Assembly (NCBI GenBank): GCA_019637265.1
Contig: JAHBVY010000001.1
Coordinates: forward strand, 1,798,001-1,862,000
Length of the DNA stretch: 64,000 bases
Source of the DNA: Polyangiaceae bacterium
Lineage (GTDB): Bacteria; Myxococcota_A; Polyangia; Polyangiales; Polyangiaceae
Direction of reading: 5' to 3'
The notes under the pieces are model-generated. The model saw nothing but the letters and a program-made list of their open reading frames with translations. It had not been told where the DNA came from and searched no databases. Of the stretch, positions 9,426-53,200 are shown piece by piece (position 1 is the stretch's first letter; each line of letters starts with the position of its first letter). A program made the translations under genes and the position numbers.

Positions 9426-9447
9426 TGCGCCCGCTAACGCGGGCGCA
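9426..9447. terminator. GC hairpin at the end of the methyltransferase gene
   Basis: TGCGCCCGC (9426-9434), a TAAC loop, then GCGGGCGCA (9439-9447). The 9-bp stem overlaps the stop codon of the reverse-strand methyltransferase and lies between convergent genes. It may work as a bidirectional terminator, but it has no U-tract. Confidence 0.45.
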
Positions 9448-10297
9448 GCACCGCGAGCAGCGAGGTGCCGAGCGGCAGGCTGCGACTCCGTAGCCAGCGC
9501 CGCTCCGGCTGCAGCACGCGCAGGGCCAGCTGGTTCACGAGCGGGAGATCGCGCGCCTCGAGCAGCTCGGGCATTTTAGCTGGCGGTGGCGCGCCCAGGA
9601 GCGCAGCGCGCGCCGCGCGCAGCCCCTTCACGCTGAGCGCGGCGAAGAACAGCGGCGCGAAGAAGTACGTGGCGCGCTCGAGCTCGAAGCCCGCCGCGCG
9701 CGCGACGGACGTGAGCTGGGCGCGGGTGTAGCGCCGCTGATGGTGCTCCACCTCGTCCCACGGCGACCAGAGCAGCTGGAAGGCAGGCACCGTCAGTAAT
9801 ACGAACGAACTGCGCCGAGCGCGCGAAGAGTGAGCGCCGGTGAGCCCCGCGCGGAGGTGGGACAGGGCGCGCACGTCGTCAGGCAGGTGCTCCAGCACGT
9901 CGAACATCAGCGCGCCGTCGTAGCCACTCGGCAGCTCCGCTGACTGGATGTCGAGCTCGAAGAACCGCCGCGCCTTCGCCGCGGCGCCGAGCTGCGCCTC
10001 CGCCTCCGCCTGGGCCAGCTCGAGGCCCTCTCGGTGGAGCTCGGCGTAGTCCACCTGGTACCCCGCCAGGTTCAGGTGGGTCGCCACCGTCCCAATCCCG
10101 CAGCCCACCTCCACCAGGCGCGCCGCACCGCGGGGATCCGCCGCCGAGCGCGCGCCGCTCACCCGCTGAAGTGCCTCGAGCAACACCTGCTTGCGGTGCC
10201 GATGCCAGTAGTGGCGCCGCTCGAGCGCGACGCGATGCTCGAACTCCGAGGGGTCGAAGGTGAGCGGCTCCTCCTGCGCCAGCTCATCGGCGCTCAC
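9434..10297 (-). CDS. Class I SAM-dependent methyltransferase
   Basis: A 287-residue methyltransferase. The GTG start at 10295-10297 overlaps the stop of the upstream fusion gene as GTGA, so the two are translationally coupled. Motif I is VEVGCGIGTVATHLN. An acidic loop contains ELHREGLELA, and motif IV is ALMFDVLEHLPDDVRAL, as in UbiG/UbiE-like enzymes. Toward the C-terminus, PWDEVEHHQRRYTRAQL is a pattern seen in methyltransferases of glycan and lipid clusters. An open frame continues upstream to 10759, but that part is a shadow of the fusion gene. The substrate is probably a product of the coupled glycosyltransferase/adenylate-forming protein. This is inference from context. Confidence 0.88.
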   Translation of the reverse strand: MSADELAQEEPLTFDPSEFEHRVALERRHYWHRHRKQVLLEALQRVSGARSAADPRGAARLVEVGCGIGTVATHLNLAGYQVDYAELHREGLELAQAEAEAQLGAAAKARRFFELDIQSAELPSGYDGALMFDVLEHLPDDVRALSHLRAGLTGAHSSRARRSSFVLLTVPAFQLLWSPWDEVEHHQRRYTRAQLTSVARAAGFELERATYFFAPLFFAALSVKGLRAARAALLGAPPPAKMPELLEARDLPLVNQLALRVLQPERRWLRSRSLPLGTSLLAVLRPR

Positions 10298-12522
10298 GAG
10301 GCCGCCACCGGGCGGCGGCCATCGAGGTGGGGCGCGTGGCGCTGGAAGTCCACGTCGAGCTTGGACACCGCGGCCAGGTGCTTCCCGGTGCGAATCAGCT
10401 CGATGGCGTCGGTGAACTCCACGTCGATCACCAAATCCTCCCCCAAGTAACGGCGGAAGGTGCTGAGCACCTCCTCGAGCACGCTGTCTGAGTAGCGCCC
10501 CGCCTTCACGAGCCTGAGCGTGATGGCGCGCGGCCGCTCCTGCACCACCTGGAAGCGCTGGATCGCGTGATCGAACTCCTTCAGGTAGTGCGCGAAGAAC
10601 GTACCGGGGAGGTAGCGGCCGTCCGTGCCCTGGATGATCGACTGCACGCGCCCCTCGATCCGGCCGATCCGCGGCAGGCCCCGGCCACAGCTGCACGCCG
10701 CGCTGGGGTCCATCGCCTCCGCCAAGTCGCCGATGCGGTAGCGGATGAAGGGGAGGCACCGGTTGTTGAGATCGGTGATCACCACCTCACCCACCTCCCC
10801 TGGGCGCGCGGGCTCGCCCTCCCGCAAGATCTCCACCAGGTACCCCTCCCCCACCACGTGGTGCCCCGCGTGCGCCTCACACTCGTAGGCCACGCCGGAG
10901 AACTCGCGCGAGCCATACTTATCGAACACGCGACACCCAAAAGCCGACTCGATCAGCTGGCGGCTCTTGTCCGGCAGCGTCTGCGCGCTGCTCATCACCG
11001 CCTGGGGCCGGAGCCCCAGCTCCCCACGCCCCCCGAGGTAGCGCGCCAAGAAGTCGAGCGCCTCGGCGTAGCCATCGATCAGCACCGGCTGCCACGCGAT
11101 CATCTCCTTCACCAGCGCCTCGAGCCGCGCCTCGGACATCTCGAACACCGGGATGAACTTCCGCCGTGAGAGCAGGGCGTCCAGCCGCTCCCGCGCCGCC
11201 TGCGCCGGGCTCATGCCGAGCGTCTGATGCCAGAGGCGAACGGAGGGATCACCGAAGCGATACCCCGTCCACTCCTGCGCGCGCAGCGTGGCCGCCCAGC
11301 GGAACTCGAGCTGCGCCCGGTCAGCATAACAGACGAACGGCTCCCCGGTGGAGCCGCTGGTGGTCACCCGCAGCACCTGACCCTTGTCGTGGTTCTCGCT
11401 CAGGATGTCGAAGTACAGGTGATCGCGCACCGCCTGCTTGGTGAGGTAGGGCAGCTTGTACAAGTCGGCCTGGCCCCGGATGTCCTGCGGCGTGAGCCCG
11501 CGCTCGCGCATCCGCTCACGATAGTAGGGCACGTTACGGTAAGCGTGCCTCACCAGGCGCCGCAGCTTCTCGTCTTGGAGCTCACGCAGCGCGGACGGGC
11601 TCAGCCACTCGGTCTCGCGGAGCGACTCGTAGTAGCGCTCCACGTCGCGCGTGATCATCCAATGGGTGGCGTCGAACGACGCCATGTAGGCGCGCCAGCG
11701 CGCCGCCTCCGCGGGCGTGCGCTTCGAGCGCGCCTTCGCCGCTTGCTCGCTCGGGGCGCGCTCGCTGACCACGCGCTCACCGTGGCGACGCCCCGCGCCC
11801 GCAGGCTGCCTCACCACGCGGTACTCCCAGGCGGCGCTCCCGAGGTCCACCAAGCTCTTCGCGGCCGCGCGGTACGCGTAGCCATCGAGGAAGCTCTGCC
11901 CCGCGCGGCGGTTCTCGAACAAAGTCTCGATCTGCTTGTAGGAGTAACCCTTGGCGTGCGCCGCCACCATGATGAAGCTCTGCCAGTAGTGGTAGCGCCC
12001 TTGGTAGCTGAGCAGGTCCTCCAAGATCTCCCGCTGGGTGATCAGGAAGCCGCTCTTGTTGTCCTGCAGCTTCATCCCGAAGGTCACGTTGAGCAGCGTG
12101 TTGAAGCCGCGGCTCAGGTGGTAGCGCGCGCCGCGCTCACGCCCGACCTGACTGCGCCAGCCCTGGACGATGTCCACGTGGTGCTCGTTCAGCTCGCGAT
12201 AGAGCCGGAGCAAGTCCTCCGGTTGGTACTGGAGGTCGGCGTCGATGATCGCCACCACCGGAGCGCGCGCCGCGCTGACCCCGGTGCGCCACGCCTCGGT
12301 GATGCCGCGGTTGGTCAGGTGCTCGCATGGGATCACGACCCCGGGGTGCGCCTCGGCGGCCGCGCGGATCGCCGCGGCGGTGCCATCCTGGCTCCCGTCG
12401 TCCACCAAGAGCAGCTCGCCGCGGAGCTGACCCCGCTCGAACACCTGAACCACGCGCCGCGCCAGCTCCGGGACGTTGAGCTCCTCGTTGTAACAAGGAG
12501 CGATGACCGACAGCTCCGGCAT
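10294..12522 (-). CDS. Bifunctional glycosyltransferase family 2 - CapK/PaaK-like adenylate-forming fusion
   Basis: A 742-residue two-domain protein. Residues 1-235 are a GT2 glycosyltransferase of the dolichol-phosphate-mannose synthase type. It starts LSVIAPCYNEE, with DDGSQDGT at 41-48, the metal-binding DAD at 94-96, and DNKSGFLITQREIL. A basic linker (about 236-275) leads to a phenylacetate-CoA-ligase-like adenylating domain. That domain carries the ATP P-loop TTSGSTGEPF (387-396), DKYGSREFSG (about 534-543) and CLPFIRYRIGD. Stand-alone CapK-type proteins of the second class occur in capsule and O-antigen loci. The fusion suggests one protein both transfers a sugar and activates an acyl or amino-acyl group for the same glycan. 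No membrane helix is evident. ATG 12520-12522 opens directly with the GT2 fold. Confidence 0.88.
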   Translation of the reverse strand: MPELSVIAPCYNEELNVPELARRVVQVFERGQLRGELLLVDDGSQDGTAAAIRAAAEAHPGVVIPCEHLTNRGITEAWRTGVSAARAPVVAIIDADLQYQPEDLLRLYRELNEHHVDIVQGWRSQVGRERGARYHLSRGFNTLLNVTFGMKLQDNKSGFLITQREILEDLLSYQGRYHYWQSFIMVAAHAKGYSYKQIETLFENRRAGQSFLDGYAYRAAAKSLVDLGSAAWEYRVVRQPAGAGRRHGERVVSERAPSEQAAKARSKRTPAEAARWRAYMASFDATHWMITRDVERYYESLRETEWLSPSALRELQDEKLRRLVRHAYRNVPYYRERMRERGLTPQDIRGQADLYKLPYLTKQAVRDHLYFDILSENHDKGQVLRVTTSGSTGEPFVCYADRAQLEFRWAATLRAQEWTGYRFGDPSVRLWHQTLGMSPAQAARERLDALLSRRKFIPVFEMSEARLEALVKEMIAWQPVLIDGYAEALDFLARYLGGRGELGLRPQAVMSSAQTLPDKSRQLIESAFGCRVFDKYGSREFSGVAYECEAHAGHHVVGEGYLVEILREGEPARPGEVGEVVITDLNNRCLPFIRYRIGDLAEAMDPSAACSCGRGLPRIGRIEGRVQSIIQGTDGRYLPGTFFAHYLKEFDHAIQRFQVVQERPRAITLRLVKAGRYSDSVLEEVLSTFRRYLGEDLVIDVEFTDAIELIRTGKHLAAVSKLDVDFQRHAPHLDGRRPVAAS

Positions 12523-12620
12523 AGGCGCGCGAGCATAGCGCGCGAACGCGCGCCATCCATGGATTGGTGACGAGGACCCGTGACTTGGCGGTCAGGACCG
12601 AAGGTCGTAGGCTTCTACCT

Positions 12621-12833
12621 ATGGCTCAAAGTAGCGATCACGTGGAGCGTCTGGTGCGCGAGCTTGCACAGCTGGATCCGAAGGACCAGGCGCGTGTCGT
12701 TGCCGAAGCTGCCCAACTGCGACGGAAGACATCAGCTAGACCCAAGTTGGTGCTCCCGACCTTGCGCGGAGGGAGTCAGTGGATCGGCGGAGCCCTCGCT
12801 CGCGAAGAACTCTACGAAGACGACGGCCGGTGA
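12621..12833 (+). CDS. Putative antitoxin of a PIN-toxin module
   Basis: A 70-residue acidic/basic helical protein (MAQSSDHVERLVRELAQLDPKDQARVVAEAAQLR) followed by an extended tail ending EELYEDDGR. Small size, a helical N-terminus and a toxin-binding-like acidic tail fit an antitoxin encoded just before a PIN toxin, with only three bases between stop and start. The ATG at 12621 is preferred over an upstream in-frame codon at 12564. I recognise no specific DNA-binding fold, so the role rests mainly on gene position. Confidence 0.65.
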   Translation: MAQSSDHVERLVRELAQLDPKDQARVVAEAAQLRRKTSARPKLVLPTLRGGSQWIGGALAREELYEDDGR

Positions 12834-12836
12834 AGG

Positions 12837-13274
12837 GTGACAAACTCAGCGCTCTTTCTCGACACGAGCCTCATCGTCGCTGCAACTGTGGCGGTACATC
12901 CGGCCCACGATGCGGCGACAGCGTTCATCGACGAAGCGATAGCTCAGGAGCATGACCTGTGCATCAGCAACCAAGTCTGTCGCGAGTTCCTGGCCGTGTT
13001 GACCCGACAACCCGTGAGTGATCGGGTCTTCGAATTGGATGAAGCGCTGGGTGCGCTGGAGGTGTGGACGATGGGCGCCCGCGTGCTCGAGGAGACGGAG
13101 GCCGTGCTCGGAAACCTGCTTGTCTTGATCCAAGAGTTTGGGGTTCGAGGCAAGCAAGTGCACGACTGCAACATCATCGCGACCATGCTCGCGCATGGGA
13201 TCCCTCGGCTGGCCACGCGCAACGCGCGAGACTTTCAGCGCTATTCGACGCTTGTCCAGGTCGACGCGGTTTGA
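12837..13274 (+). CDS. PIN-domain ribonuclease toxin (VapC-like)
   Basis: A 145-residue PIN-domain protein, GTG start with AGG just upstream. The acidic residues expected for Mg-dependent RNase activity are present: Asp9 in LFLDTSLIV, Glu in NQVCREFLAVL, Asp in VHDCNIIATML, and Asp in ATRNARDFQR. This is the typical VapC order D-E-D-D. With the preceding small gene it forms a type II toxin-antitoxin module inserted between the glycan genes and an epimerase. Both genes show somewhat lower GC and more varied codons than their neighbours, which fits horizontal gain. Confidence 0.88.
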   Translation: MTNSALFLDTSLIVAATVAVHPAHDAATAFIDEAIAQEHDLCISNQVCREFLAVLTRQPVSDRVFELDEALGALEVWTMGARVLEETEAVLGNLLVLIQEFGVRGKQVHDCNIIATMLAHGIPRLATRNARDFQRYSTLVQVDAV

Positions 13275-13378: not shown

Positions 13379-14332
13379 ATGTCGGGCTTCGACTTCTCGG
13401 GCAAGCGGGTGGTGGTGACGGGCGGAGCGGGGTTCATCGGCTCCCACGTGGTGCGAGCGCTCAGCGCGGCAGGCGCCGAGCGGATCACGGTGATCGACAG
13501 CCTACGTTATGGCGACCTGACCAATCTGGGGGCCGAAGCGGAGCGCGTCGCGCTCATCCGTCACACGCTGGGGACCGATCCGATCGAGGCGCTCGCGGCG
13601 CCGCTCGAGGCCGATCTGCTCATCCACCTCGCCGCCGAGAAGCACAACCAGTCGAAGGATGATCCGACGCGCGTCGTGCGCGCGAACATCGAGGGCACGC
13701 TCGCGCTCCTGTGTGAGGCGGCGCGGCGCGGCGTCAAACGAGTGGTGTTCGCGTCGTCGCTCTACGCCTACGGTAGGATGAGCGGCGCTGACTATCAGGA
13801 AGACGAGCTACCAGCGCCGAGCACGGTGTACGGCGTGAGCAAGCTCGCCGGTGAGCAGCTGCTCCGCTACGCCGCGGCGGAGTTTGGCATCAGCTGGCTC
13901 GCGCTGCGCTACCTGTTCGTCTACGGGCCGCGGCAGTTCGCGGGCATGGGCTATAAGTCAGTCATCCTGAAGACATTCGAGCACATCCAGCGCGGCGAGC
14001 AGCCCGTGGTGTACGGCGACGGCGAACAACGCCTGGACTACGTGTTCGTGGATGACGTCGTCACGGCGACGCTCCGCGCGGCCGAGGCCGAGCTGACGGG
14101 TGAGGTGCTGAACGTCGCCTCCGGGGAGGCCACGAGCGTGAATCAGCTCGTCGACCTGATGCTCGAGGTGAGCGGGAGCTCGCTCACCAAGCGTCACGAG
14201 CCGCCGGACTGGACGCAGGGGAGCCGGCGCGTGGGCGACCCAACCCGCATCGCCGAGCGCCTGGGGTGGCGCAAAGCGACGTCGCTCGGCGAGGGCCTCG
14301 AGGCCACTTGGCGGTGGTGCGCGCACCGGTGA
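13379..14332 (+). CDS. NAD-dependent epimerase/dehydratase (extended SDR)
   Basis: A 317-residue extended short-chain dehydrogenase/reductase acting on nucleotide sugars. The NAD-binding TGGAGFIGS is at residues 14-22, LIHLAAEKHNQ at about 81-91, and the catalytic Ser in FASSLYAYG. The YxxxK pair is Tyr151/Lys155 in TVYGVSKLAGE. RYLFVYGPRQ and QRLDYVFVDDVV are typical of UDP-glucose 4-epimerase or dTDP-glucose dehydratase relatives. Which sugar is used cannot be told from sequence. It lies near a glycosyltransferase and a second epimerase, suggesting supply of sugars for a surface glycan. Confidence 0.9.
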   Translation: MSGFDFSGKRVVVTGGAGFIGSHVVRALSAAGAERITVIDSLRYGDLTNLGAEAERVALIRHTLGTDPIEALAAPLEADLLIHLAAEKHNQSKDDPTRVVRANIEGTLALLCEAARRGVKRVVFASSLYAYGRMSGADYQEDELPAPSTVYGVSKLAGEQLLRYAAAEFGISWLALRYLFVYGPRQFAGMGYKSVILKTFEHIQRGEQPVVYGDGEQRLDYVFVDDVVTATLRAAEAELTGEVLNVASGEATSVNQLVDLMLEVSGSSLTKRHEPPDWTQGSRRVGDPTRIAERLGWRKATSLGEGLEATWRWCAHR

Positions 14333-46348: not shown

Positions 46349-49300
46349 CTAGTTCTCGATGATGAAGGCCAGCTCCTCCGCGAGCTGGGGGTCGAGCTCC
46401 TTCAGCGCCTCGAGCTGCTTCTGGGCGGCCGCCTCGTGCCCCAGGTTCGCGTAGCCAACCCCCAACCCGTAGCGGAGCTGAGCGTCGTTCGAGGCCAGCA
46501 AGAGCGCCTCCTGGTACGCCTCCACCGCGCCCTGATGATCGCCCAGCTCGGTCAATGCGGCGCCCAACTGACGATGCGCCTCCAGCTGGTCCGGATCCAG
46601 CTCCACCACCCGCCGGTACGCCACCACCGCGTCCTCGCTGCGCCTGAGCCGCTCGAACAGCCGCGCCAGCTGGAGCAGCGCGCTCACGTCCTTCAGCCCG
46701 AGCTCCACCGCGCGCAGGCAAGCCTTGGCGGCGTCTTCGGTGCGCCCCACCTTCAGGTAGCCAAAGCCGAGCGCGGCGAACAACGTGGGGTCCTCCGGCG
46801 AGAACTCGGTGGAGCGCTCCCAGGCCGTGAGCGCCTCCTCCGTGCGCCCGGTGTGCATCAGCGAGGCGCCCAGGGCGTACTGGGCGTGGGCATGGTCAGG
46901 ATCCATGCGTAAACAGCGCTTGAACGCGGCGGCGCTCTCGTCGTGGCGCCCCAGGCGCTGATACGCCACGCCCAGGCGGTGGTAGTCCTCCGCCTCTGGC
47001 TCCAGGCGCACGAGCGCGGTGAGCGCGCGCGCCGCCGCTTCGTGGTCCCCCGCCTTCTCGCTCACGTCGCGCTGAGCGCGCAGGATCTCGACGTCGTCCG
47101 GCGCCAGCTCGAGCGCGCGGCCCAGCGCGTGCAGCGCCGCCGCGGCGTGCCCGAGCCGAGCGCGGCACAGGCCCTCGCCTCGGTGCGCCGCGACGAGCGT
47201 CGGGTCCAGCTCGGCCGCCGCGGCGAAGGCTTCGATGGCCTCGATGTGCTCGCCCAGCTGAGCCCGGGCTTGGCCCAGCTCGAGGTGCGCCGTGGCGCTC
47301 TTCGGGGTGAGCAGGGTGAGGCGGTGGAAGGCCTCCGCGGCGTGACGGTGCTCGCCCAGCGAGACCAAGCTCTGGCCGACCGCTAGCCTGAGCGTGGCGT
47401 CATCCGGCGCCGCGGCGAGCGCGCGCTGAAACGCGGCGAGCGCCTCGCGCGCGCGTCCATCCGCTTGATAGCGCCGCGCGAGCTCGAGGCTCGCTTCGGC
47501 GGACGCGCCGCCGAGCGCGGCGATCCGTTCCAGCGCGCGCGTCTCGTCCTGGGCGCGCCCAGCGCGCGCGTAGAGCTCACTCAGCGCGCGCCAGGCTGTC
47601 AGGTCGTCTGCCTTCAGCTGCGTCCAGCCTTCGTAGGCTTGGATGGCGCGGGGCGCGTCTGAAGCGGCGTCAGCGCTCTGCGCGAGGAGCTGCCACGGCT
47701 CGAGCTCACCCAACTGGGCGGCGGCCTCAGCGAGCGGGCCGAGCGCCTCCGCGTGACGCCCCGCCTGAGCGAGCCAGCGCCCGAGCGCGAGCCGAGCGCC
47801 GCCGTCGCCTGGCGTCAGCTCAGCCACCCGCGAGAGCGCCGCCTCCGCGTCACGCTGGAGCTCGACCTCCAGCGCCGCGCGGCGCCGCCAAGCAGCGAGC
47901 TCGCTCGGCGCCGCCTGCGTGAGCCTCACCAGCGCCTCCAAGAGCTGCGCGCGATCGCCCTCTGCCTCGAGCGCTGAAACGAGCTGACGCAAGAGCTCGA
48001 CCTCCTCAGGGTGCGCCGCGCACAGGATAGTCAGCTCCCGTGCCTTGGCTGCGTGGTCCTGAAGGTGCCCCAACACCTCCACGTAGAGCCGCCGCAGCGC
48101 CTCGTCGTCGCGGTGGGCGAGCGCCGCCGAGAGCGCCTGCCGCGCGCGCTCGTGCTGCCCCAGCGCCGCCGCCAAGCGCCCGATGATGGCGTGCGCCTCG
48201 GCCAAGTTGGGATCGAGCGCGAGCGCCTCGGTGTAGGCAGCCAGCGCGAGCTCAGCCTCGCCCAGCTGATCGAGGGCGGCGGCGAGCAAGGCCTGCCCGC
48301 GCGGGTCGGGCTCCGCCGCCAGCGCCGGCGTGAGCACCCGGCGCACGTCCGCCGCCCGCCCGCTCACGCTGAGCGCGGCGCCGAGCGTGAGCACCAGCTC
48401 GCGATCCGTCACGCCGAGCTCATGAGCGCGCAGCAGCGCCTCGAGCGCGCGGGGATCGCCGAGCCCCGAGAGGATGAGCGCGTACTTGGCGCACAGCTCA
48501 CGATCATCAGGGGTGATGACGAGCGCGGCCTCGAAGGCGCGCGCGGCCTCGAAGGCGCGGCCCAAGCGGCGGAGCGCCTCACCCAAGCTCACCTGGAGCG
48601 GGGCCTGATCGGGCCGCGCGCGGGCCGCTGCCGCGAGGTGGGAGACGGCCTCCTCATCGTGGCCCGTCCTCACCAGCAGGCGCCCGAGCACCACGTGACC
48701 CCGCAGGTACTCCGGCTCGAGCTCCACGGCGCGGCGAAGCGCCGAGAGCGTGAGGTCGATGTCCTTCAGCTTGACGCCCACCTCACCCAAGAGCTTGAGC
48801 GGCTCGGCCTGATCGGGGTGGCGCTCGGCGAAGGCCGTGAGCGGCTCGCGCGCGGCCTCGAAGCGACCCAGGCCGACCAGCGCTCGCCCATAGCCGAGCT
48901 GGGCCTCGGGCTGCCCCGGCTCGATCGTCAGGGCCTCTGCATAATGCGCCGCCGCGGCCTCCAACTGCCCAGCCCGCTCCTCCTGCTGCGCCGAGCTGAG
49001 CGCTCCGGAGGTCAGCGCCAGCTGGGCGCGCGCGAGCAAGGCTTGGCCAGGCTCCGAGCCTGGCGCGAGCGCGCACAGCGCCTCGGCCGTCCTTCGCGCG
49101 GCGAGGTGCTCACCTCCCTGCAGCTCCAGCTCCCCCAGCTGCAGCAAGCTGGCCTCGCTCGGCGCCAGCGCCACGAGCTGCCGCAGCGCCGGTACCAGCT
49201 CCGCGCTCTTCAGCTGAGCGAGCAGCTCCACTCGGCGCTCGAGTAGGGAGATATCGTCAGGAGCACGCTGCAGTGCCTCCGCCAGCACCTGCTCCGCGCC

Positions 49301-52300
49301 GGTCAGGTTCCCGAGCCGTACCAGCGTCTCCGCGATCTTGAGCCGGAGCCGGCTTCGCTCTGCCTCCACCGGTGAGGCGCCCTCGAGCGCGCGCTGATAA
49401 GCGGCGAGCGACTCCTGAAGGCTCCCGAGGCTGCCCTCCACGTCCCCGAGCAGCTCATGGCTCGAAGCCAACGGAGCGATCCGAATCGCCTGCCGCAAGG
49501 CCTGACGCGCGGCCTGCGCGGCGCCGCCTGCTTGCTCCGCGCGCGCCAAGCCGACGAACAGCGCGGCGTCATCCGGCGCCAGCTCGAGCGCGCGCGTGAA
49601 GCGCTCACGCGCCTTCGCCGAGCGCCCCAAGCGGAGCTCCACCTCACCCAGGCTCTGGAGCAGCGACGCGCTGCTCGGCAGCGCCGCGAGCGCGCCTTCG
49701 AGCACCTGCGCCGCCTCTTCATCACGCTCGGTCGCCGCGTACAAGCGACCCAACGCGAGCTGGGCGTCCAGGTGCGAAGGCTGGCGTTGGATCACCGCCT
49801 GGTAGGCTTGAATCGCCGCGCCGAGCAGGTTCAGCGCCTCACGAGCGCGACCCAAGCCAGCGTGCGCCAAGACGTCCTCCGGCGCTTCGGCGAGCGCCGC
49901 CTCATAGGCGTCGCGCGCCCCGCTCGCGTCACCCAAGCGGTGCTTCGCTTCACCCAGCGCGCGCTGGATCTCGGCGCGCGGCGCCGCCGGCGAAGCGCCG
50001 GTTTGTGAGAGGCTCAGCGCCGCCTCGAGCTCACGCGCCGCCTCCTCGGCTCGATCCAACTCGAGCAAGCAGCGACCCAACGCGAGGTGCCGCGCGCTCG
50101 TCGCCTCACGTTCGAGCAAGCGCCTCCAGGTCGCAGCGCCGATCTCATGCTCGCCCAGCTCCATCGCGAGCCCAGCCACTCGCTCCTCAGCCTCACTGCA
50201 TCGCTCAGCTGCGCTGCGGCTCTCTGCTGTACTGCGGCTCTCTGCTGTACTGCGGCCCTCTGCTGCACTGCGGCCCTCTGCTGCACTGCGGCTCTCCGTC
50301 TCACCGCGCTCCACGGAGCGCGCTGGCGCAGCCACCGAGAGCGCCTGCGCGGTGCGCTGATACGCGCTGAGCGCGCCACGCAAGTCCCCGGCGGCGCGCA
50401 GGGTCTCCGCGAGGAGCTGGAGCGCGCGCGGATCGTCACCACCGCGGCGCAGGCTCTCCTCCAGCGCGCGCCGCGCCTCGTCCAGGCGCCCGCTCTCATA
50501 GTGACCGCGGCCCAACGCGAGCAAAATCGCCGGGTCACCACCGCCGAGTGACACCGCCCGCGCGAACCGAGCGGCGCTCTCCTCGAAGCGACCGAGCCGC
50601 TCGAGGGCGGCGCCCAAGCTGGCGTACAGGCTCGCCCGATCGGGCGCCAAGCTGACGGCACGCTCCAGCGCGAGCACCGCGCCCGCGTCATCCCCCCGCC
50701 GGGCGCGGAGCTCCCCCAAGGCCACGTAGCCGCTCAGGTAATCCGGGTCGAGCTCGGTCGCGACGCCGAGCGCCGCCTCCGCCCCCGCGTCATCGCCGAG
50801 CGCCGCGCAAGCCTCCCCGAGGAGCCGGTGGACGCTCAGGCGCTGCTCGACGCCGGCATCGTCAGCTAGCGTGTCTTTCGCGCGACTGAGCGCCTCCCGC
50901 GCCTGCGTCAGGTAATCAGCCTCGCTGCCTTCGTCCCGCGATGACCGGCTACCGTCAGTCCCACTGCCGTTGGCCTCCCGAGCGCCGAGCCAGGCCTGCC
51001 CCAGCGCCAGCCACAGCCCGCTGTCCCCGGGGCTCGCGTGGGTGGCCACGCTCAGGCTCCGGCTCGCCAGCTCGTGCTGCCCCAACGCGAGCCGAACCCG
51101 CCCGAGCGGCGCCTGGAGCGCGACCAGCTCTCGGTGCGCCTCCGCCGCCACCGCCTCATCCTCGCTGTCCACCCGCTGGCTCAGGCGTGTGTCCGCCTGC
51201 GCCAGCTGCTCCAGCGCCTTCGCGTGCTCGCCCTGCTCCGCGAGGAGCCGGCCCACTTGGGCGTAGCCAGGCACGTAGTCCGGATCGAGCTCCAAGGCGC
51301 GGGTGAGGGCGTCCATCGCCTCGTCTCGCTCCCCCAGCTCGAGCGCCGCGCGCCCGAGCGCCTTCAGCGCCTGCTCCATGTCCGGGCGCAGCCGCACGCA
51401 CTCCTTGAGCGCCGAGCGCGCCTCCGCGAAGCGCCCGAGCCGATTCAGCGAGTCACCCAAGGCGCCGAGGCTCTTGTAGTCGTCCTCCTCGGCGTCGAGC
51501 ACGCGCCGCAGCACCTGGACCGCTGCCTCGTGATCCCCCACCCCCGCGAGCGCTCTGCTCGCCACGCGCTGCAGCTCCAGGTCTTCCGGAAAAGCCGACG
51601 CCGCTGCCGAGAGCGCCTCGGCCGCGCCCGAGGCATCCCCCAACGCCTGCCGCAGCTCCCCCAACGGACGCCACAGATCGCGGTAGCTGGGCTCGCCCGC
51701 CAGCGCGCGTTCGTAGGCCGCCGCCGCCTCACGGGTGTCTCCCTGAGCGCTGCAGGCGCGCCCCAGCTCACGCTCGGCGCGAGCCGCCGAGAACGTCACG
51801 ACACCTGTCGATGCTTCCAGTCCGAGCGCGAGACTCCGCTCGAGCGCCTGCTTGGCGAGCTCCCACTTCTCGGTCTGGTTGTAGGCGACGCCGAGGCAGA
51901 GCCGCACCCCCGGATCCTTGGGCAACAGGCGCGAGGCTTGGAGCAGCAGCGGGTGCGCCTCCTCACCCTGCCCCAGCCGCACGAGCACCTCCCCCACTCG
52001 CGCGAGCAAGGCGGCGTCATCCGGGTTCAGGCGCAGCGCCTCCTTCAGCGCGCTCGCGGCCTCTTCATCGCGCCCCGCCACGAGCAAGAGCTCAGCCAGC
52101 GCGAGCTGCGCTCCGCCATCGTCAGGTTCACGCCGCACCACCTCCTGGTAGGCGGCGAGCGCCTCCTCCGAGAGCTCGAGCGAGGCGCACACCTCCGCCA
52201 ACCCACGCCACCCACGGGTCAGCTCAGCGTCCAAGCGGGTCGCCTCGCGGTACGCCTTCCGCGCCTCCCCGAGCTCCCCCTGAGCGCGCTGCGCGTCGCC

Positions 52301-53200
52301 CAGCATCAAGCAGGTGAGCGGCGCGTTCGGCGCGAGCCCCAGGCTCCGCTCGAAGCTCTCCACCGCCTCACCTGCCTTGTCCGAGGCGAGCAAGGAGCAC
52401 CCCAAATCGAAGTGGACGCTGGCGTCCTTCGGCAGGAAGCGCAGCGCCACCCGGAACGCGCTCACCGCCGCGGGGTGTTGATCGGCGGCCGCGTAGGTCC
52501 GCGCGATGGCGAGGTGCCCCTCCACGTACTCCGGGTCCAAGTCGAGCGCGCGCCGGTAGGCGTCGATGCCGTGGGTGAGCTCGCCCAGCGCCGCGCTCGC
52601 GCGCCCGAGCAGCTTGAACCCGTCTGCGGCGTCCGGCTCGAGCAGCGTGAGCTCCTTCAAGATCCGCTGCGCGGCCTCCCAGCGCTCTGTTTCCACATAG
52701 CAACGCCCCAAGCGGAGCATCAGGGAGGTGTCCTGGCCACGCGTCAGCGCGCGCTCATAGCAACCCGCCGCGTCCTCGTAGCGCTCAATCTGGAAGAAGG
52801 CGTCGCCACCCTGGCGCGCCGCCGTCTCGTGCTCCGGCGCGAGCTCCGAAGCCGCGCGAAACCGCACCCCCGCCAGCTCGAAGCGCTCGAGGCGCCAAGC
52901 CGTCTCGGCGCAGGCGAGCTGCACCTCCAGGTGCTCCGGTTTGAGCTCCGCCCCCCGCGCCAGCACCTCGAGCGCGGGCTCGGGCTCCCCCTGCTCGAGG
53001 CGCACCAAACCGAGGTTGTAGTGCGCCAGGAAATGGTCAGGCTGAAGTCCAATCGCCCGCTGGTACTGCTGGGCCGCCTTCTCCAGCTCGCCGTTCTTCT
53101 GGTACGCGTGACCGAGCCGGTAACGCTTGACGGGGTCCTTGGGGTTCATCATCAAGCTCGACTCGAGCAAGGTGATGAGCTGCTTTGCTTCCTCGTCCAT
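46349..53200 (-). CDS. Giant TPR-repeat protein (2283 residues)
   Basis: A 2283-residue protein made almost wholly of 34-residue TPR units, roughly sixty, from the N-terminal MDEEAKQLITLLESSLMMNP to the C-terminus. Typical units are GELEKAAQQYQRAIGLQPDHFLAHYNLGLV and GRTEDAAKACLRAVELGLKD. There is no signal peptide or membrane helix, so it is probably cytoplasmic. One low-complexity insert of six-residue units (RSTAES, GRSAAE) interrupts the array at about residues 968-998. Such solenoids act as scaffolds for protein complexes. It follows the DUF4139-like gene by 57 bases on the same strand, likely as one transcript. The repeats vary, so they are old rather than recently amplified, except for the insert. 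Confidence 0.93.
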   Translation of the reverse strand: MDEEAKQLITLLESSLMMNPKDPVKRYRLGHAYQKNGELEKAAQQYQRAIGLQPDHFLAHYNLGLVRLEQGEPEPALEVLARGAELKPEHLEVQLACAETAWRLERFELAGVRFRAASELAPEHETAARQGGDAFFQIERYEDAAGCYERALTRGQDTSLMLRLGRCYVETERWEAAQRILKELTLLEPDAADGFKLLGRASAALGELTHGIDAYRRALDLDPEYVEGHLAIARTYAAADQHPAAVSAFRVALRFLPKDASVHFDLGCSLLASDKAGEAVESFERSLGLAPNAPLTCLMLGDAQRAQGELGEARKAYREATRLDAELTRGWRGLAEVCASLELSEEALAAYQEVVRREPDDGGAQLALAELLLVAGRDEEAASALKEALRLNPDDAALLARVGEVLVRLGQGEEAHPLLLQASRLLPKDPGVRLCLGVAYNQTEKWELAKQALERSLALGLEASTGVVTFSAARAERELGRACSAQGDTREAAAAYERALAGEPSYRDLWRPLGELRQALGDASGAAEALSAAASAFPEDLELQRVASRALAGVGDHEAAVQVLRRVLDAEEDDYKSLGALGDSLNRLGRFAEARSALKECVRLRPDMEQALKALGRAALELGERDEAMDALTRALELDPDYVPGYAQVGRLLAEQGEHAKALEQLAQADTRLSQRVDSEDEAVAAEAHRELVALQAPLGRVRLALGQHELASRSLSVATHASPGDSGLWLALGQAWLGAREANGSGTDGSRSSRDEGSEADYLTQAREALSRAKDTLADDAGVEQRLSVHRLLGEACAALGDDAGAEAALGVATELDPDYLSGYVALGELRARRGDDAGAVLALERAVSLAPDRASLYASLGAALERLGRFEESAARFARAVSLGGGDPAILLALGRGHYESGRLDEARRALEESLRRGGDDPRALQLLAETLRAAGDLRGALSAYQRTAQALSVAAPARSVERGETESRSAAEGRSAAEGRSTAESRSTAESRSAAERCSEAEERVAGLAMELGEHEIGAATWRRLLEREATSARHLALGRCLLELDRAEEAARELEAALSLSQTGASPAAPRAEIQRALGEAKHRLGDASGARDAYEAALAEAPEDVLAHAGLGRAREALNLLGAAIQAYQAVIQRQPSHLDAQLALGRLYAATERDEEAAQVLEGALAALPSSASLLQSLGEVELRLGRSAKARERFTRALELAPDDAALFVGLARAEQAGGAAQAARQALRQAIRIAPLASSHELLGDVEGSLGSLQESLAAYQRALEGASPVEAERSRLRLKIAETLVRLGNLTGAEQVLAEALQRAPDDISLLERRVELLAQLKSAELVPALRQLVALAPSEASLLQLGELELQGGEHLAARRTAEALCALAPGSEPGQALLARAQLALTSGALSSAQQEERAGQLEAAAAHYAEALTIEPGQPEAQLGYGRALVGLGRFEAAREPLTAFAERHPDQAEPLKLLGEVGVKLKDIDLTLSALRRAVELEPEYLRGHVVLGRLLVRTGHDEEAVSHLAAAARARPDQAPLQVSLGEALRRLGRAFEAARAFEAALVITPDDRELCAKYALILSGLGDPRALEALLRAHELGVTDRELVLTLGAALSVSGRAADVRRVLTPALAAEPDPRGQALLAAALDQLGEAELALAAYTEALALDPNLAEAHAIIGRLAAALGQHERARQALSAALAHRDDEALRRLYVEVLGHLQDHAAKARELTILCAAHPEEVELLRQLVSALEAEGDRAQLLEALVRLTQAAPSELAAWRRRAALEVELQRDAEAALSRVAELTPGDGGARLALGRWLAQAGRHAEALGPLAEAAAQLGELEPWQLLAQSADAASDAPRAIQAYEGWTQLKADDLTAWRALSELYARAGRAQDETRALERIAALGGASAEASLELARRYQADGRAREALAAFQRALAAAPDDATLRLAVGQSLVSLGEHRHAAEAFHRLTLLTPKSATAHLELGQARAQLGEHIEAIEAFAAAAELDPTLVAAHRGEGLCRARLGHAAAALHALGRALELAPDDVEILRAQRDVSEKAGDHEAAARALTALVRLEPEAEDYHRLGVAYQRLGRHDESAAAFKRCLRMDPDHAHAQYALGASLMHTGRTEEALTAWERSTEFSPEDPTLFAALGFGYLKVGRTEDAAKACLRAVELGLKDVSALLQLARLFERLRRSEDAVVAYRRVVELDPDQLEAHRQLGAALTELGDHQGAVEAYQEALLLASNDAQLRYGLGVGYANLGHEAAAQKQLEALKELDPQLAEELAFIIEN
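50205..50294. repeat. 18-bp tandem repeat inside the giant TPR gene
   Basis: Five copies of an 18-bp unit (TCTGCTGTACTGCGGCTC and variants) at 50205-50294 encode the six-residue units of the low-complexity insert. Four of the copies differ at only one or two positions, pointing to recent expansion. Confidence 0.9.

Follow-up and report, generated by a model that had tools for sequence, protein, structure and literature searches.

A single reading frame joins GT2 and CapK-like domains

The window analyzed is a 64,000-nucleotide stretch of a Polyangiaceae genome. The gene of interest lies at 10294-12522 on the minus strand, where 742 codons without a stop are read from the window DNA from 12522 down to 10294, and it encodes a GT2-CapK fusion protein of 742 amino acids. 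The plus-strand reading of the same positions is interrupted by stops. All four of the motifs DDGSQDGT, DADLQ, TTSGSTGEPF and CLPFIRYRIGD are contained in the minus-strand frame. An earlier note on this DNA had described one continuous frame joining GT2 and CapK motifs; its coordinates are exact and the single frame is borne out, and the strand, which it did not give, is minus. A SAM methyltransferase gene (9434-10297, minus strand; Pfam Methyltransf_23) follows the fusion, and its GTG start codon (10297-10295) overlaps the TGA stop codon of the fusion (10296-10294) as GTGA. The divergent partner of the fusion is an SDR gene whose product is UDP-hexose 4-epimerase-like (13379-14332, plus strand; Pfam Epimerase, E = 1.3e-51).

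The GT2 half comprises residues 1-237 (11812-12522, minus strand). Residues 5-170 match Pfam PF00535 with 97.7 bits against a curated cut-off of 23.3, and this match together with a DXD-type motif, the DAD at 12235-12243 (minus strand) with invariant D94 and D96, places the half in the GT2 superfamily. Foldseek hits of the N-terminal half include ArnC (9bhe, E = 3.6e-16) and GtrB (9nyc, E = 1.7e-13). The fusion has the GT2 fold, the DAD...PE motif region and the overall structure in common with ArnC, the undecaprenyl-phosphate L-Ara4FN transferase, and with GtrB. It differs from them in being joined to a CapK domain and in lacking the C-terminal membrane helices that ArnC and GtrB possess, and it scores 70.6 bits against the cut-off of 529 of the ArnC equivalog model PRK10714. 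Hydropathy detects no membrane helix anywhere in the window protein, in which the highest 19-residue Kyte-Doolittle mean is 0.89, and the fusion therefore would have to act at the membrane surface. By sequence and structure the N-terminal half resembles the polyprenyl-phosphate glycosyltransferases, and a polyprenyl-phosphate acceptor is a prediction from that likeness.

The linker (residues 238-300; 11623-11811, minus strand) is longer and more diverged in the window protein than in its relatives in an alignment of 29 proteins, and model confidence falls below 50 at residues 251-256. The whole-protein structure model has a mean pLDDT of 80.6 and a pTM of 0.71.

The CapK/PaaK-like half spans residues 301-742 and the stop codon (10294-11622, minus strand). 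It matches NCBIfam PaaK-type models (best E = 8.5e-44) and solved PaaK structures (E = 9e-31), and the Foldseek matches include 4r1m (E = 1.2e-26) and 2y4o, which is PaaK2 with phenylacetyl adenylate. The minus strand encodes a P-loop, TSGSTGEP (residues 388-395; 11338-11361), the RYRIGD motif (residues 594-599; 10726-10743) and a TGK whose lysine, K714 (10381-10383), is the candidate adenylation lysine, a role carried over from the PaaK family. The fold, the P-loop, the RYRxGD motif and the C-terminal lysine make this half a PaaK/CapK-like adenylate-forming domain in the wide sense. These features are held in common with the phenylacetate-CoA ligase PaaK, from which the fusion differs in having GRVQS in place of GRSDD and in scoring 110.6 bits against the cut-off of 646.3 of the PaaK equivalog TIGR02155. 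The C-terminal half attains none of the curated equivalog cut-offs, and the Pfam AMP-binding model PF00501 (cut-off 29.9) gives 14.5 bits for the window protein and 24.4 bits for its Roseobacter relative.

The fusion occurs in three bacterial lineages

The earlier note had proposed a search for other GT2-CapK fusions and their neighbors. This search was run and found full-length fusions in Polyangia, Candidatus Peribacteria and Roseobacter. The fusion is uninterrupted in 18 of 59 related genomes at 54-76% identity. Full-length matches at E ≤ 1e-100 occur in 22 of 379 genomes drawn from the phylum, the window's own genome included, and one of these copies has an in-frame TAG. Two finished genomes, those of Sorangium cellulosum So ceGT47 and Minicystis rosea, carry the fusion. 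Outside the phylum, it is present in three Peribacteria genomes (48-49% identity) and on the Roseobacter litoralis plasmid pROLI127 (46% identity), where it is annotated merely as 'glycosyltransferase'. The Peribacteria genomes are reduced, with about 1.1-1.2 Mb of available sequence, and the presence of the fusion in them suggests that its product is worth retaining even there.

None of the relatives compared is divided into two genes where the domains meet, so the two-gene arrangement that the earlier note had raised against a true fusion does not hold. The apparent exceptions were rejected. The G579 relative (L131/L133) lies in two overlapping frames, and the break, near profile positions 359-367, is inside the CapK half; sequencing error and decay are both possible. 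In G021 and G025 the GT2 genes in question stand alone, with no CapK attached. The Omnitrophota match L059 consists of two genes in the reverse order that adjoin a branched-chain amino-acid-type transporter. A frameshift at the linker was also discarded: inspection by eye of the alternative frames in the linker region of the window shows no kin of the conserved linker, and the relatives are open there. That a frameshift or misassembly welded two genes together has practically no probability left, since the same uninterrupted frame recurs in many independent assemblies, finished genomes among them, and the points on its side lie outside the window, namely the in-frame TAG in one MAG copy and the frame break of G579, a genome of the Peribacteria phylum, where the break is in the CapK half and not in the linker. 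The comparative data thus already refute an artefact, including the error between the domains that the earlier note had considered, and they rule out a chance open frame as well.

PADLOC returned no match to the fusion, no phage record spans it, and its matches among viral structures are to generic GT2 or ligase folds only. The sources searched, which on the literature side were open-license papers, yielded neither a publication on the fusion nor a family name for it.

Catalytic residues are conserved and the halves share a deep history

Residues D42, D94, D96, Q98, P101, E102 and R205 of the GT2 half are invariant in the 29 aligned proteins. The invariant residues of the CapK half are T388-P395 of the P-loop, Y536, G537, E540, R594-R596, G598, D599, T712, G713 and K714. 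Separate trees of the two halves have the same deepest split, which divides the Polyangia genome L106, Roseobacter and Peribacteria from the rest with an SH-aLRT of 99 in each tree. Roseobacter sits on a long branch and is placed with some uncertainty, and below the deepest split the branching order in the trees of the two halves is only partly resolved. Because the trees share their deepest split, they fit one fusion event followed by transfer as a single unit.

An NDP-sugar SDR is the most constant neighbor

The window SDR matches the UDP-glucose 4-epimerase structure 4zrm with E = 3.6e-49. One SDR type, closest to UDP-glucose 4-epimerases, is encoded close to the fusion in about 11 of the 30 loci, a lower bound, as are all neighbor counts here, with short flanks in several loci. 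This type adjoins the fusion in each of the three lineages, and the SDR of the window shares 44% identity with its Roseobacter counterpart. Its placement varies. The gene is divergent in the window and in L037; in Peribacteria and L106 it lies immediately upstream, and in Roseobacter it overlaps the fusion. A second SDR type lies 3' of the fusion in L050, L042, L104 and L107, and some loci have neither an SDR nor a methyltransferase nearby. The occurrence of the SDR-fusion pair in Polyangia, Peribacteria (L047-L049) and the Roseobacter plasmid (L139) marks an unusual path of horizontal transfer. The comparisons show the two domains to be fused and long conserved, with all key catalytic motifs kept, and to move together between phyla, frequently accompanied by an SDR of the epimerase-like kind.

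The earlier note had seen the methyltransferase as coupled to the fusion through GTGA. The overlap itself was read directly; as a constant partner the methyltransferase fails, and one of the window type lies directly after the fusion in a single other locus, L052 (50% identity). SAM methyltransferases of several families are near the fusion in at least about 12 of 30 loci, and Roseobacter and L050 have one in common (39% identity) beside it. On gene-neighborhood evidence the NDP-sugar SDR is the most constant partner found, better supported than the methyltransferase.

Other neighbors differ between lineages. An LPG_synthase_TM protein is encoded beside the fusion in Roseobacter and L050, and in Peribacteria the genes close to it encode a PMT (GT39-type) protein along with further multi-pass proteins. 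No multi-pass, GT-C- or flippase-like gene lies within 6 kb of the fusion in the window. On pROLI127 the SDR-fusion pair stands alongside GtrA, the exosortase XrtD, VPLPA-CTERM proteins and many glycan genes. Eight loci of the Sorangium group have a DUF362 gene of unassigned function by the fusion, mostly right after it (12291-13706 in L040, with a like place in L044, L046, L098-L101 and L105). The earlier suggestion of a modified surface lipid or glycan gains support for its surface-glycan setting from the relatives, through the SDR, the LPG_synthase_TM, PMT/GT39-type and multi-pass proteins, and the plasmid with exosortase and polysaccharide genes.

A PIN-domain toxin-like gene (12837-13274, plus strand) and a small upstream open reading frame (12564-12833) separate the divergent SDR and fusion genes of the window. 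The same divergent pair is only about 240 bases apart in L037, and a VapBC-type pair may therefore have been inserted between the two genes in the window.

The closest known systems keep the two families apart

CapK-type proteins encoded on Deinococcus and Methanosarcina plasmids are 35% and 32.5% identical to the C-terminal half. Like the fusion, they have polysaccharide, SDR or glycosyltransferase neighbors, but they are stand-alone genes. We know of no established biochemical function for the CapK-type proteins of polysaccharide clusters. Both families adjoin in a PaaK-GT2-GT39 row in Monoglobus and in a PaaK-GT2 pair in an Omnitrophota MAG; unlike the fusion, these are separate genes in reverse order, with 26-27% identity. 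Mycobacterial Ppm1 is akin to the fusion in that a polyprenyl-phosphate GT2 is fused to an acyl-transferring domain; it differs in that the partner is an Lnt-like acyltransferase and not an adenylating enzyme. Both domain families of the window protein are already known.

A proposed role in envelope-glycan assembly

The protein is probably an undescribed surface-glycan enzyme. The explanation we favor, at slightly less than an even chance, is a bifunctional enzyme of the envelope glycan, whose GT2 half loads a sugar made by the SDR onto a lipid carrier and whose CapK half adenylates an acid for that same sugar. The SDR would supply an NDP-sugar. On the inner side of the membrane, the GT2 half would move the sugar from it onto a lipid acceptor, either polyprenyl phosphate or a different one. 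With ATP, the CapK half would adenylate a carboxylic acid, which may be acyl, aryl or aminoacyl, and the activated acid would be joined to the sugar through an amide or ester bond, either directly or via CoA. The methyltransferase could add a further mark, and the decorated lipid-linked sugar would then be flipped to serve as a substrate of GT-C-type enzymes in the membrane. The idea in the earlier note that one transcript could add a sugar, activate an acyl or amino-acyl group and methylate the product stands as a hypothesis. The acceptor, the sugar, the acid and the coupling of the two reactions are proposed and not observed. In structure the GT2 half is close to ArnC/GtrB and the CapK half to adenylate-bound PaaK, which argues for this scheme, as does the row of separate PaaK, GT2 and GT39 genes in Monoglobus. 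The missing membrane helix, the lack of a nearby GT-C- or flippase-like gene in the window and the variation of partner genes between loci count against it.

The missing helix would suit a different, rather improbable route in which an aryl or fatty acid, converted by the CapK half to its adenylate or CoA thioester, goes into a product resembling a lipid or pigment that GT2 glycosylates directly, leaving polyprenyl phosphate uninvolved. The C-terminal half has similarity to FlxY, a protein of flexirubin synthesis, at E = 2e-31 and with a score well short of the FlxY cut-off, and aromatic acids are the substrates of the solved PaaK relatives NatL2 and ClxA. The best likeness of the GT2 half is nevertheless to ArnC/GtrB, and no ketosynthase or acyl carrier gene is among the annotated neighbors, which are an incomplete survey. 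It is equally improbable that the halves are independent within one pathway and that their fusion merely sets dosage or location. GT2 relatives that stand alone without CapK (L096, L097) and the stand-alone CapK genes of polysaccharide clusters are consistent with such independence, whereas the fusion is intact across three phyla with both halves strongly conserved. Stand-alone CapK paralogues of Sorangium and its kin were considered as a clue to the substrate; they are mostly beside a similar ABC transporter and are uninformative for the fusion.

A bolder form of the envelope-glycan scheme, which we regard as doubtful, is that the fusion represents a new class of enzyme that couples sugar loading on a lipid carrier to ATP-driven acyl or aminoacyl attachment to the same sugar, and that Polyangia, the ultra-small Peribacteria and a Roseobacter plasmid have come to hold it through horizontal transfer with its SDR. 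The conserved fusion of CapK to a glycosyltransferase of ArnC/GtrB type, and the SDR that recurs with it, link the CapK family to a single step in the building of glycans, and the question of the CapK role becomes testable with one soluble protein.

Elsewhere in the window, a 2283-amino acid open reading frame at 46349-53200 (minus strand) consists almost wholly of TPR repeats.
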